64,000 nucleotides of DNA from Halorhabdus rudnickae (lineage in GTDB: Archaea; Halobacteriota; Halobacteria; Halobacteriales; Haloarculaceae). Position 1 is the first letter of the stretch; each line of letters opens with the position of its first letter. The notes under the pieces are model-generated. The model was not told the DNA's origin and ran no database searches. It was given only the letters and a program-made list of their open reading frames with translations. Both the position numbers and the translations under genes were made by a program. Of this stretch, positions 15,672-25,768 are shown in pieces. The stretch is taken from assembly GCF_900880625.1 (NCBI RefSeq), contig NZ_CAAHFB010000001.1, positions 806,001 to 870,000 of the forward strand, read 5' to 3'.

Positions 15672-16660
15672 GTCACCACCTCCAGCGCCTCTCGGACGGC
15701 GCCGGACACCCGCGCTGCGTCCTCGTCGGTGTCCAGCGCCGTGTCTGTCCGGACGGTCGGTCTGTCGAGATCGGTGCCGTCCGCCGCGTCGAGAACGAAC
15801 GCGTCGACGAAGGGGTACACCTCGGCGACGCCAGCGGTCGAAGGTTCGTACCCTTCGGCTCCCATCAGCTTCGCCGCGGGACCAGAGAAAACGCGATCCC
15901 CGACGAACGGCGAGACGGCGACGACAGGGGTCGCTTCGAGGGCCTCGCTGATCCCGTCGAGTGCGATCATCGGCCCGAGGCTCGTGATCGGGTTCGACGG
16001 GCCGATCACGACCGGATCGGAGAGGGCGTCTAAGACCTCGTCGGTGGCTTTCGCGTTCTCGGCCCCCCGAAACTCGACGGATTCGACGGGTGGGTCGCCG
16101 TTCCTGGCGACCCAGAACTCCTGGAAGTGCATCGGACCGTCGGGCGTGTGGATGATCGACGCCACAGGGTCGTCGCTCATCGGTAGAATCTCCCGGTCCG
16201 CATCCAGCGCATTGCCGAGGATGCGGGTCACTTCCGTCAGGGAGTGGCCCTCGTCGAGCAGACTCGTCCGCGTGACGTGGATCGCCCGGTCGCGGTCGCC
16301 GATGTGCATGAACTCTCCGACGGCGGAGAAACGCCGCCAGCGGGCGATCTCGCGGCCCGCAGTCTGTCGTTCGTCGGGGAGGTATCGCGGCCCGCTCTCG
16401 AGACCTGCTCTGTCAGCGAGAGTTCGGACGTACTCGTGAGTCTCGGCCGTGTCGTCGGCGATCCCCCACCAGGTGTCCGTATCGAGGACGTCCCCGGACT
16501 GAAAGAGACACGTATCGACGTCCGGGCAGACGAACAGGCCGCCAAGCTCCACATCGTCGCCCGTGTTTGCGACGACGGTCGTCTCTACGGGCGGGAACGT
16601 CTCGTCGGCGCCGGCGAGCAGCTTCGGCGTCCCGGTCCCGCCGGCGAGGAAGGTGACCAT
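15668..16660 (-). CDS. cofD: 2-phospho-L-lactate transferase (F420 biosynthesis)
   Basis: 330 aa. Joins the phospholactate or phosphoenolpyruvate unit to the deazaflavin FO, forming F420-0 (dehydro-F420-0 in the PEP variant). Signature: [20 protein letters not shown], then [22 protein letters not shown], and [18 protein letters not shown]. The ATG at 16660 fits the family N-terminus; ATGs at 16687 and 16762 give longer forms. It is the first gene of the coupled operon ending in asd. FbiC/CofG/CofH and CofE are not in the window. Confidence 0.93.
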
Positions 16661-16787
16661 ACCGCCCGTTGGGTGGACGCCACTCATAAGGGTGTCCTCG
16701 CCTGGCGGAGTCGTCAGCCCACGTCCACGTTTCAATCCTGAGAATCGGGCACATAGACTCAAGGGAGTAAGCTACCGTCCGTGGGGT

Positions 16788-17315
16788 ATGGAAGACGCGT
16801 ATCGGTTCGCGCCGGCCGCCCCCGGAGAGGAGTACGTTTATGGGGCGGCTGCGCCGGGCTGGCACACGGCCGCTGACCACGAGACGGCCGTCTCGGCCTG
16901 GATCGAATTTATGCACGAGCGAGGTATCGAGCGTGTCTGCTGTCTGGTACCAGGGGAATGTGACGAGGGCTGTCAATACAATCTCGATCGGTACGCCGCG
17001 TCGTTCGGCGAGGAAGACGTCGTCCACGCACCGCTGCTGGACCGACGGCTCGGCAACCAGGCCGTCCTCGAAGAGTCGATTCTGCCGTTTCTCGAGGAGT
17101 CCGTCCGCCTGGAGTCGCCAGTTGTCGTTCACGGACTCGCGGGACTGGGACGGACGGGACAGGTCCTGGCTGCGTGGCTGGTCGACGCACGGGAAAACGA
17201 CCCCGAATCGGCCATCGAGACCGTCGAGGAGATGGGACGATACCCCGAAGAACCCATAGATGACGGGGACGTCACGGAGGACGAATTGCTCGATCATCTC
17301 GCCGCTGTCGACTGA
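16788..17315 (+). CDS. Protein-tyrosine/dual-specificity phosphatase-like protein lacking the catalytic Cys
   Basis: 175 aa. The C-terminal half has the P-loop of the tyrosine phosphatase superfamily but reads VVVHGLAGLGRTGQVLAAW. The nucleophilic Cys of HCX5R(S/T) is Gly116 (codon GGA, 17133-17135), while His115, Arg122 and Thr123 remain. An Asp that could be the general acid is kept (HAPLLD, D85). The N-terminal part (YRFAPAAPGEEYVYGAAAPGW) and GIERVCCLVPG match the haloarchaeal form of the family as I recall it. It is therefore expected to bind phosphorylated ligands without cleaving them. Divergent from cofD; 184 bp from the transducer gene. The start is the ATG at 16788; upstream codons of the frame overlap cofD. 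Confidence 0.8.
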   Translation: MEDAYRFAPAAPGEEYVYGAAAPGWHTAADHETAVSAWIEFMHERGIERVCCLVPGECDEGCQYNLDRYAASFGEEDVVHAPLLDRRLGNQAVLEESILPFLEESVRLESPVVVHGLAGLGRTGQVLAAWLVDARENDPESAIETVEEMGRYPEEPIDDGDVTEDELLDHLAAVD

Positions 17316-17499: not shown

Positions 17500-19362
17500 T
17501 TACTCCAGGTCACTCGGCGGTGACCCGGGGCCGGTCGGATAGTAGAACTCGTGTTTGGACTCGGTATCGAAGCTGTCGAGGACGTCCATGAGCGGTTTGG
17601 CGTACCGAGTGAGGTTCTGAGCCTGCTGGGAGACCTCCGTAAGTTCTGCGGCCTGTTCCTCGGCCGCGCCAGCGACGTTCTCGGATTCGGCCATCGTCTC
17701 GTCGATGAACCCGGCAAGGGCCTCGATCATCTCGGTCACCTCACGGAGCTGATCGAGGGGCATCTCGACGTCAGGATCGTCGACTGTTTCGAGCTGGTCG
17801 ATGATCTCGTCGATCGTCGACGCCAGTTCCTCGAGTTGTTCCTGCTGTTCGTGGGCGTCGTCCGAGATGTGCTGGATGGAGTCAGCGACCTGTTCGGCGG
17901 CATCCCGGACATTCGCGGCGGAGACCTCGACGACCTCGCCAGCTTCCTCGACTTCGTCGGCGAAGTGCTTAAGCTGGCCGGTGGTGTTCTCTAACTCCTC
18001 GATCATGCCGTTGAAGTCCGTGGCGATCTCGTCCATGGCCTCGTTCTCGCCGTCGGTTTCCATCCGCCTCGTGAGGTCGCCGGCCGCACATTCTTCCATG
18101 ATTTCGCTGTATTCTCTGGCCTTGGACTGGAGGTACTCGTTCATCTCCATCGCCTCGGCACGGGCGACTTCCGCCTCCTTGCGAGCCTGTTCGGCCTCGT
18201 TGATCTGCTGTCGAAGGGCGTCGCGCATGCTTGCGAACCCGTCGTACAGCCGACCGATCGAGTCGATCCGACCGGAGTGAATGTCCACGTCGAGATTACC
18301 CTGTTCCATCTCCTCGACTTTCCCTCGGAGGCGGTTGAGGTCCCGGGATGTCGTGTATCCGATCACCGCCCCCAGGAGACCGATGAACAGAACGGCTCCG
18401 AACGTCACGATCGTCCCCCACTTCGTGATTGTTCTCACGAACCCGAACGCGCTACTTTGTGGTTCGTGAACGAGAACTGCCCAATCGACAGCGGCCCGAT
18501 CCACTTCCACCGGTGAATGACTCACTACGTAGGGCTGATCGAGGACCGATGGATCCGGTTGCGCGTTCGCATTGACGCCGACTCCGGTACGTGCACGCTC
18601 GATGTACTGGTTCGCGGTCCCGTCACTGTACGAATCGAACACACGGCGGCCGTCCGTGGCTATCTGAACGGTCCCATCGGCGTTGATGACGCGGGTAAAG
18701 CGTTCGGACTCCTCGCTGGGAGCCAGCGCACCAGTCAAGGAATCAGTTGTATACTCCACGACGAGGTACCGGTTTGACGTATCGGGAACGGGACTGATAA
18801 ACGCCGTCAGCTGGGTCCCGTCGACCTCATGCACGTCCGTGACGCGTGCTCTGCCGACCTTGAGATCGCTCAGGTCCTGCGTCGCGATCCACGCCCGTTC
18901 ACCGTCGGCCAGGGATTGCCCGTCGGGAAGTTGTGGACTGGCGACGACGCTGGTCGAGTCTTCGGTCTGTTCGAGAACGTAAATTGACTGCATATCGTAA
19001 AGACTCGCGCTGGTACGTGAGAGGTACCTCGTCATGTCGATAGCCGCTCCCGACCCCGTCTGGGTCAGTATTTCGTTCTCCGCTGAGACTTTGACTGCGA
19101 TCGCGTTCCGCTGGATCCACGTTTCAACGACGCCGGCTTGCTGTTTGGCCAGTTCCTGATACTCCTGCTCGACGTTCTCCTCGACCTGTCCTGACACGCT
19201 CTGGGTCGCCACGACCCCGAGGGCGCCGATGACGAGTCCCATCACGATCAAGATCAATGCGAACTTGAGTGTGAAGCGTCGTCGAACGAAGTCCGGAACG
19301 AGTGCTCGTGAAACGGTCTGTATCAACCCACTACTCGAGGCTGATTCCGGAGAGTCTGCCAT
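17500..19362 (-). CDS. Membrane transducer-like protein with HAMP domains but no MCP signalling tip
   Basis: 620 aa from ATG 19362 (MADSPES); upstream in-frame codons are possible. Layout: TM helix about 33-53, extracellular Cache-like sensor about 54-315 (MQSIYVLEQTEDSTSVVASP is typical), TM helix about 316-337, HAMP about 338-385, second HAMP-like segment about 415-465, then a coiled coil to 597. The coiled coil resembles both ends of a haloarchaeal MCP hairpin (IQHISDDAHEQQEQLEELAS and ESENVAGAAEEQAAELTEVS), yet the CheA-contacting tip ([16 protein letters not shown] type) is absent. Instead a link of about 30 residues (ETVDDPDVEMPLDQLREV) joins them. It probably senses but cannot drive CheA in the usual way. 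Confidence 0.82.
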   Translation of the reverse strand: MADSPESASSSGLIQTVSRALVPDFVRRRFTLKFALILIVMGLVIGALGVVATQSVSGQVEENVEQEYQELAKQQAGVVETWIQRNAIAVKVSAENEILTQTGSGAAIDMTRYLSRTSASLYDMQSIYVLEQTEDSTSVVASPQLPDGQSLADGERAWIATQDLSDLKVGRARVTDVHEVDGTQLTAFISPVPDTSNRYLVVEYTTDSLTGALAPSEESERFTRVINADGTVQIATDGRRVFDSYSDGTANQYIERARTGVGVNANAQPDPSVLDQPYVVSHSPVEVDRAAVDWAVLVHEPQSSAFGFVRTITKWGTIVTFGAVLFIGLLGAVIGYTTSRDLNRLRGKVEEMEQGNLDVDIHSGRIDSIGRLYDGFASMRDALRQQINEAEQARKEAEVARAEAMEMNEYLQSKAREYSEIMEECAAGDLTRRMETDGENEAMDEIATDFNGMIEELENTTGQLKHFADEVEEAGEVVEVSAANVRDAAEQVADSIQHISDDAHEQQEQLEELASTIDEIIDQLETVDDPDVEMPLDQLREVTEMIEALAGFIDETMAESENVAGAAEEQAAELTEVSQQAQNLTRYAKPLMDVLDSFDTESKHEFYYPTGPGSPPSDLE

Positions 19363-19680
19363 ATATTTCCCTCTCATCGCCGATTCACCCTCATCCACAA
19401 TAGATGTATGTGATATTGATCCCGCAAACGATGACCCGACCACGCCGTTCTTGAAAACCAGTAACGTGTAACATACTGTCGGTGACGATCGCGAGATACA
19501 GTTGCTTAAGCGGGGACGAAACGATCGGGCTGAGAAAGTCCTGTGAACGGAAGCACGCGGCTACCGGAAAGTTTCGAAGCGCGAGCGCCCATCGAGACGA
19601 ACTCCCTGGAGCGATCCGGAAAAGGACCCACTTGGTTAGATGGACGACGGTGCGAGCGGACAGCGGAACGGGGCAGGTAG

Positions 19681-24310: not shown

Positions 24311-25768
24311 CTATGACGAACCGGTCAGCCGGTCCATCGACGACTCGACCTCCTCGATCATCGCCACCTGATCTTCCGTGTTCGCGACGATTTCCTGTAC
24401 TTCGGCAGCGACTGTTTCGGCTTCACCGAGCGCACTATCGATCATCGCTGCGATTTCCTCCGCACTTGCCGCCTGATCGTCGGTTGCATCGGAAACCTGA
24501 CTAATCCCCTCGACCGTCGCAATCACTTTTTCGACGATCGCTTCGAAGCGAGCCATCGCTTGATCGACTTGCTCGATGCTATCGTTTACTTGCGTGGTTG
24601 TTCTCTCTAGGTTTTCGACAGTCGACTCGGTTTCGGCTTGAATGTCTCCGACCATTTCTTCGATGTCGCTGGCGTGGGTCTGGGACTCTTCGGCGAGACT
24701 CTTGACCTCGTCTGCAACCACGGCGAACCCTTCACCGGCCTCACCCGCCCGCGCGGCTTCGATGGATGCATTCAGTGCCAGCATGTTCGTCTGATCGGCG
24801 ATATCATTGATCACCTCGACGATCTCGTCAATCTCGTCGATTCGTCGCTGGAGTGCATGAACGTCACCAGTTACTTCGTCGGCGGAATCGGAAGCCTCCT
24901 CCATGACACTGACAGCCTCTTTGGCGGAGTCACGTCCTTCTTCAGCGAGATGCTGGGCTTCGTTGCTAGTCTCTTCGACTTCGTCGGCCGTCGATGCAAT
25001 TTCTTCGACGGTCGCAGAGAGATCGGAGACTTCGGTCGCGATCTCGCCCATGTCGTTGGCCTGCCCGCTCGCTAGGTCTGAAATCTCCTGGGAGTACTCG
25101 GCGATACCGTCAGCAGACTCCTGTAACTGCTCGATATCGCTATCGATCTCTTCGACGACTTCGTGTATCGTCGACCCCATTTCATCGACGACGTCGATGA
25201 GCGTGAGAAGTTCTTCGTTAAGAATGCTATCCGTGGCCTCGAAGTCGACGTGCGCTTGGAGGTGTCCGCGCTCGTAGGCACTGAGTGTCTGTTCGATCGC
25301 GTCCAACAAGTCAGCGCGTTCCTGCCGGTAGCGTGCCGAGTGCTCGAGGTCTTGAACGATTTCGATGACACCGATCAGTTCGTCGTCTTCGTAGATCGGG
25401 GTTGCAATGAACCAGATATCCCCACTCAGATCCGCCGTATCTTCATAGACTGGCGTCTTATCGCCTTCGAGCATCACGTAGTCTTCGTTAACGAGTCCAA
25501 CACCAGCAAAGTCACTATCTGCGTTCTGTGGTGATGCAAGGACTTTCTCTGCAAGAAGTAACTCCGATGGATCATCGTACAGCACTTGGCCGAGGTTATC
25601 GATTCTCTGAACCTCCTCGCGGGGAACATCGAGGAGAGCTGCGATATGCCTATTCCAGTTAACAACTTCCCCGTCCCTGTTAAGGACTAGCGCCGGGAGG
25701 CTGATAACATCCAGGACAGTCTCACAATCTAATACGTTCGTAGGCTGGAATTGCGTATGCTCTGCCAT
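24311..25768 (-). CDS. Soluble methyl-accepting chemotaxis transducer with PAS domain
   Basis: 485 aa with no membrane segment. A PAS domain occupies about residues 12-140 ([19 protein letters not shown] and [21 protein letters not shown]). After a linker, the MCP signalling hairpin runs from about 190 to 470 and includes the intact CheA/CheW-binding tip [17 protein letters not shown] followed by [16 protein letters not shown]. The sensor is cytoplasmic, so it may detect redox, energy or a small ligand. Monocistronic, divergent from tmcA. It contrasts with the tipless transducer at 17500-19362. Confidence 0.92.

Follow-up and report, generated by a model that had tools for sequence, protein, structure and literature searches.

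A conserved family of haloarchaeal transducers with a short signalling hairpin and no kinase-control tip

The gene at 17500-19362 on the reverse strand of the window (the whole 64,000-nucleotide stretch of Halorhabdus rudnickae DNA analysed here) encodes a chemoreceptor-like membrane transducer in which a short link stands for about 165 lost residues of the signalling hairpin. Comparison of its homologues indicates that such tipless transducers form a conserved family present in multiple copies, and that the gene is not a broken one. They seem to constitute a receptor branch without the usual kinase signalling in these cells.

Results

Architecture of the window protein

The coding sequence specifies 620 amino acids and a stop codon. 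Its frame is unbroken throughout 17500-19443 on the reverse strand, and translation probably begins with the ATG at 19362, since a 91%-identical ORF of Halorhabdus amylolytica, equal in length, starts at the same residue. The protein consists of a TM helix, a dCache-type sensor, a second TM helix, two HAMP domains and a shortened signalling hairpin, all coordinates below being on the reverse strand. TM helix 1 (around residues 31-53, 19204-19272) is a hydrophobic run that falls, when aligned, close to the TM1 region of NpHtrII, the transducer of sensory rhodopsin II. It is followed by the extracellular sensor (around residues 54-308, 18439-19203), which is assigned at the level of the family: PF02743 (dCache_1) is matched by 9 of 27 members, at best with 7.4e-10, and Pfam gives no significant PF02743 match for the window copy taken singly. 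A second hydrophobic run, TM helix 2 (around residues 309-333, 18364-18438), precedes HAMP1 and was aligned with the TM2-HAMP part of NpHtrII. Pfam detects HAMP in two stretches (1.8e-10). The first, HAMP1 (residues 334-385, 18208-18363), matches PF00672 with 1.5e-10 and corresponds to the NpHtrII structures PDB 2f95 and 2rm8. The second, HAMP2 (around residues 413-462, 17977-18126, CAAGDLTRRM...), has borders that we infer and completes the TM-sensor-TM-HAMP-HAMP layout of haloarchaeal transducers (Htrs).

The N-terminal arm of the hairpin (residues 463-528, 17779-17976) and the C-terminal arm (residues 556-600, 17563-17697) are both recovered by family profiles and predicted to be helical by AF2. 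They are joined by a short turn or link (residues 529-555, 17698-17778), the start of which is covered by ETVDDPDVEMPL (residues 525-536, 17755-17790). The C-terminal arm carries a degenerate methylation motif, VAGAAEEQAAEL (residues 563-574, 17641-17676), in which Glu replaces the small residue after EEQxx. The protein ends with a tail, ESKHEFYYPTGPG (residues 601-620, 17503-17562), that is conserved among tipless proteins. The MCPsignal domain (PF00015) is not significantly matched by Pfam in the window protein, with 9.1 bits against a cut-off of 34.6. In contrast, the transducer at 24311-25768 (reverse strand), a PAS and MCPsignal protein outside the tipless family, reaches 155 bits. The host genome encodes 13 ordinary MCP-domain proteins.

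A sequence-only reading of this DNA had described a sensor, two TM helices, a HAMP domain and both outer hairpin segments, all of which are confirmed by Pfam, the hydrophobic runs and the arm profiles. Our analysis adds that the sensor is of the dCache type in the family and that the methylation sites are gone along with the tip.

The AF2 model of the full protein, built from three sequences, is poor (pLDDT 44). For the hairpin alone (residues 425-620), AF2 predicts a pair of long helices joined by a turn at DDPD, and a disordered tail, at a mean pLDDT of 82. A fold search with this model returned chemoreceptor cytoplasmic domains as the best matches, none at E 0.001; the predicted hairpin resembles soluble chemoreceptors of Thermotoga with weak significance.

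The lost block contains the tip and the main methylation regions

We built a separate profile for each of the two arms flanking the gap and measured the distance between the profile matches. It is 27-35 residues in the 69 tipless proteins and 194-200 residues in full haloarchaeal receptors, and none of the 93 proteins compared lies between these ranges. In the window protein about 28 residues separate the arms, matched at 345-528 and 556-618, in agreement with the earlier claim that the tip block is replaced by a link of about 30 residues. Full receptors extend 82 residues from the end of the N-arm profile to the tip and 112-118 residues back along the C arm. Set against these lengths, a link of about 30 residues implies that about 80-90 residues, or 11-12 heptads, are missing from each arm. 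Besides the tip, the lost block comprises both main methylation regions, and the kinase-control tip motif is absent from 69 of 69 tipless members.

To score methylation sites we used the exact pattern [ASTG]2-x2-[EQ]2-x2-[ASTG]2, which we take to be the CheR methylation consensus, its use by CheR in these species being assumed from the literature. The pattern occurs in all 24 full receptors (1-8 times each), as opposed to 4 of the 69 tipless proteins. The position of VAGAAEEQAAEL is the sole methylation site left; its Glu is found in 99% of tipless proteins and in 0% of full receptors, which have A, S or T there. The earliest-branching tipless protein on our tree (L033:1459-3318) keeps the ancestral motif AAAAEEQTAT, which suggests that the tip was lost before the methylation motif. 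Consensus pairs of this kind mark the likely methylation sites of NpHtrII (PMC4651059).

Spread, origin and conservation of the family

A search of 59 related genomes returned full-length matches in several genera, about 620 aa long and mostly 37-51% identical. The full collection numbers 69 tipless homologues. They come from several genera that all belong to one family, taken as Haloarculaceae from its named relatives (Halorhabdus). Three copies reside in the host genome, the other two at C1:1076784-1078631 and C6:325879-327639. The window copy shares the features of the family: a link of about 28 residues, no methylation consensus and the tail KHEFYYPTG.

From alignment A1 we made a profile that covers the cytoplasmic part and searched 391 genomes of the order with it. 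Short ORFs matching the full profile occur in 54 genomes from seven genera, all of one family; outside that family, the matches that were read proved to be ordinary receptors, with lengths from about 800 aa upwards. A broader sample of the phylum added no tipless member outside the one family. In a tree of the region from HAMP to the first arm, 60 tipless rows fall on one side of a single branch (SH-aLRT 89), which is consistent, with moderate support, with a single origin. Our search of the open-access literature for an "HTR-like protein" or truncated chemoreceptors returned no relevant description.

Between the window gene and its H. amylolytica counterpart, dN/dS is 0.115 overall. It is 0.185 in the part comprising TM1 and the sensor, 0.052 in TM2 and the HAMPs and 0.062 in the hairpin, values that point to strong purifying selection on the gene, hairpin included. 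At about 20 positions, many of them on the retained arms and the tail, tipless proteins share a fixed residue that full receptors do not have. The tail, EHEF[YV]F..G, is present in most tipless proteins, and its DNA pattern has 11 matches in 7 Halorhabdus genomes, all inside tipless genes; relative to H. amylolytica it shows 0 amino-acid changes and 5 silent ones. Two soluble members and an ABC-transporter-linked sublineage have lost it. Given a turn that varies in sequence and a tail that some members lack, no single surface is universal. In no case did we see a C-terminal output domain fused to the short hairpin; the longer ORFs that were read are over-extended at the N terminus.

The sequence-only reading saw no frameshift or stop that would account for the missing tip. 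The open frame agrees with this, and the homologue search that it proposed returned the short hairpin in 68 further proteins, not a set of full-tip homologues beside one assembly deletion. An assembly or frameshift artefact is ruled out by the same short link in 69 homologues from independently sequenced genomes. That the gene is a degenerating or artefactual receptor without function, as the loss of its core domain might suggest, is scarcely credible given a length and sequence conserved across genera, several copies per genome, purifying selection and family-specific residues. The reading had also offered a lineage-specific deletion product. The origin it implied is upheld by the one branch and one family, while the implied decay is contradicted by duplication, diversification and strong purifying selection.

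Gene neighbourhoods

The window copy is flanked by CofD, phosphatase-like and HD-domain genes, an arrangement shared with H. amylolytica, and none of these neighbours suggests a partner. No SBP, H-NOX or Che gene adjoins it. The phosphatase-like gene (16563-17315, forward strand) is convergent with the tipless gene and encodes a protein related to dual-specificity and tyrosine phosphatases (PF22785, 6e-9) in an archaeal host.

Other copies have more informative surroundings. The first 4 bp of the C6 copy are shared with a Peripla_BP_6 gene, and H. amylolytica has retained this pair. In other genomes SBP_bac_1 or SBP_bac_8 genes lie directly upstream of the tipless gene, and one further tipless lineage is adjoined by ABC sugar-transporter genes. 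Direct SBP-tipless pairs thus occur in several separate lineages. In the host genome an SBP gene lies within 3 kb of two of the three tipless copies, for which the probability by chance is about 0.001, counting the 11 SBP genes found there with two families. The other Peripla_BP_6 gene found in the host genome (G000:C1:1112748-1116112; L005, L064) is next to a full-length Htr, so both Peripla_BP_6 genes found there are linked to transducers. The same genome encodes, near C1:1300109-1301809, a soluble protein of about 930 aa (L013:595-3399) with a full MCP signalling domain (3e-35) and a complete SBP_bac_8 domain (2e-35) in one frame and no evident TM helix between them; from its sequence this is apparently a binding protein fused to a cytoplasmic chemoreceptor.

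Further tipless lineages adjoin genes for an FGGY kinase, a PfkB kinase, pyruvate kinase or KDPG aldolase. Soluble tipless proteins of 272-311 aa, which have neither the membrane part nor HAMP1, are encoded in three genomes of genus g5, and each of their genes directly follows a gene for an H-NOX haem domain (HNOB). At these loci (L113:3248-4574, L114:2409-3798, L115:1863-3619) the order is H-NOX gene, soluble tipless gene and a gene for a halocyanin-like copper protein. At another locus (L056:6687-8711) the tipless gene adjoins a dCTP deaminase gene split by a LAGLIDADG intein. No partner gene common to the tipless genes was found: neighbours vary by lineage, and only SBP/ABC and H-NOX genes recur beyond the loci of close relatives.

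Discussion

A proposed signalling branch beside chemotaxis

In the account that we favour, with confidence that is evenly balanced, ligand or binding-protein sensing is relayed by the two HAMPs to the short bundle, which is read in a way other than direct docking of CheA and CheW. An Htr-type chemoreceptor in an ancestor of the Haloarculaceae would have lost about 165 residues in frame. With these residues the receptor would have given up its CheA/CheW-binding tip, its trimer contacts and its methylation sites; the sensor, the TM helices, HAMP1, HAMP2 and a short antiparallel hairpin would have stayed. The dCache sensor would be acted on by a ligand or, in paralogues encoded beside an SBP, by the ligand-loaded binding protein. 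The signal would then pass through TM2 and the HAMP1-HAMP2 pair and alter the packing of a short four-helix bundle, to be read by way of its conserved arms and of the tail that most members have kept. The architecture, the size of the deletion, the absence of tip and methylation motif, the conservation, the confinement to a single clade and the operon pairs are direct results; both the direction and the target of this output are what we infer.

In the soluble members, H-NOX haem proteins are the likely input, and HAMP2 with the short hairpin would in that case be a portable output module. The combination of one short hairpin with dCache, SBP and H-NOX inputs is what an output module in its own right would look like. 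More tentatively, and with somewhat less than even confidence, we propose that HAMP2 and the short hairpin are such a module, derived once from a chemoreceptor, which couples dCache sensors, SBPs and H-NOX proteins to a non-Che partner in a Haloarculaceae branch parallel to chemotaxis. The earlier suggestion that the protein signals to a different partner is plausible and the one preferred here, although the neighbouring genes yield no such partner.

The main rival, also put forward by the sequence-only reading in the form of a decoy, is that tipless receptors weaken the full-length transducers of the array. They might do so by competing for ligands or SBPs, by forming non-productive HAMP or stalk assemblies, or by titrating CheR, CheB or CheD. 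We consider this rather unlikely, while giving it more weight than the other alternatives. It draws on the tip-lacking transducer HtrM, which attenuates phototaxis (PMC6450946), and on the distribution of CheA. In our sampled, hand-counted set, CheA (PF02895) is encoded in 54 of 54 tipless-bearing genomes and in 23 of 47 others of the family. The Fisher p of this association is 1.5e-10 with kinship ignored, and at the level of genera it is 7 of 7; as the tipless genera are all CheA-bearing genera, it is confounded by kinship. Two genomes of the same genus (G284, G304) keep CheA and have no full-length tipless receptor. The family tracks motile, chemotactic lineages, a distribution that decides neither for nor against a role in the array. 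Several features speak against such a role. The missing methylation consensus makes a CheR/CheB sink unlikely. With about 80 residues absent from each arm (about 12 nm at 1.5 A per residue), the hairpin should fall short of the baseplate. The soluble H-NOX-linked members, moreover, lie outside the membrane array.

It is less probable still that the proteins serve as transport regulators or docks for SBPs, tuning an ABC transporter or uptake genes with a hairpin that only dimerises. Such a role would fit the several lineages whose tipless genes share operons with SBP and ABC genes, and others that have sugar-metabolism neighbours. Many members, including the window copy, are nevertheless without a transporter neighbour, and the soluble H-NOX-linked proteins have no transport context. 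The HAMP pair and the arms are also the most constrained parts of the protein (dN/dS about 0.05-0.06 compared with 0.185 in the sensor), which fits cytoplasmic signalling.

Chemoreceptors are usually treated as inseparable from CheA and CheW. Throughout this clade, receptors with neither the tip nor the adaptation sites have been retained, duplicated and diversified, while the normal array genes are still present. A readout other than CheA/CheW docking would make them a second chemoreceptor output in archaea. If they instead weaken the array, they would be a standing set of ligand-specific taxis attenuators, extending the light effect of HtrM to many nutrients and gases.

Comparison with known systems

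NpHtrII is the best solved relative: the family profile matches its TM2-HAMP1-HAMP2 region (PDB 2f95, 2rm8) with an E-value of 1.5e-26. Unlike the tipless proteins, NpHtrII has a complete adaptation region and tip (PMC4651059). The outer hairpin segments are homologous between tipless proteins and full Htrs, whereas the signal domain that defines PF00015 MCPs is undetected, with no tip and no methylation consensus.

H-NOX proteins are known to pair with kinases, with cyclases or with MCPs that have a full signal domain. In the three genomes described above, the partner gene directly after the HNOB-domain gene encodes a tipless hairpin instead.

The pairing of a binding-protein gene with a transducer is likewise known from BasT and CosT of Hbt. 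salinarum, encoded with BasB and CosB, and binding-protein partners co-purify with the full transducers BasT, CosT, Htr6 and Htr18 (PMC3579733). BasT and CosT act in the CheA pathway, while several tipless paralogues, the window copy not among them, keep the SBP adjacency without the tip.

By analogy, the nearest precedent is HtrM of Haloarcula marismortui, the transducer of SRM, whose authors noted that such a structure was not seen in other haloarchaea (PMC6450946). Like the tipless proteins, HtrM is a haloarchaeal membrane transducer with no methyl-accepting domain and no CheA/CheW tip, in a cell that has CheA. Its authors guess at competition for CheB or CheR (PMC6450946), which for the tipless form is argued against by the missing methylation motifs. 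As described, HtrM is set apart by a rhodopsin sensor and a single HAMP as its sole cytoplasmic domain, with no hairpin; the tipless family has a dCache sensor, two HAMPs, a conserved short hairpin and a family-specific tail. The rhodopsin genes of the host genome lie away from the tipless gene, and no HtrM homologue was found beside the rhodopsin genes read in 20 genomes of genus g5. By the tipless family collected here, this lineage commonly has transducers that lack the tip, in a form unlike HtrM.
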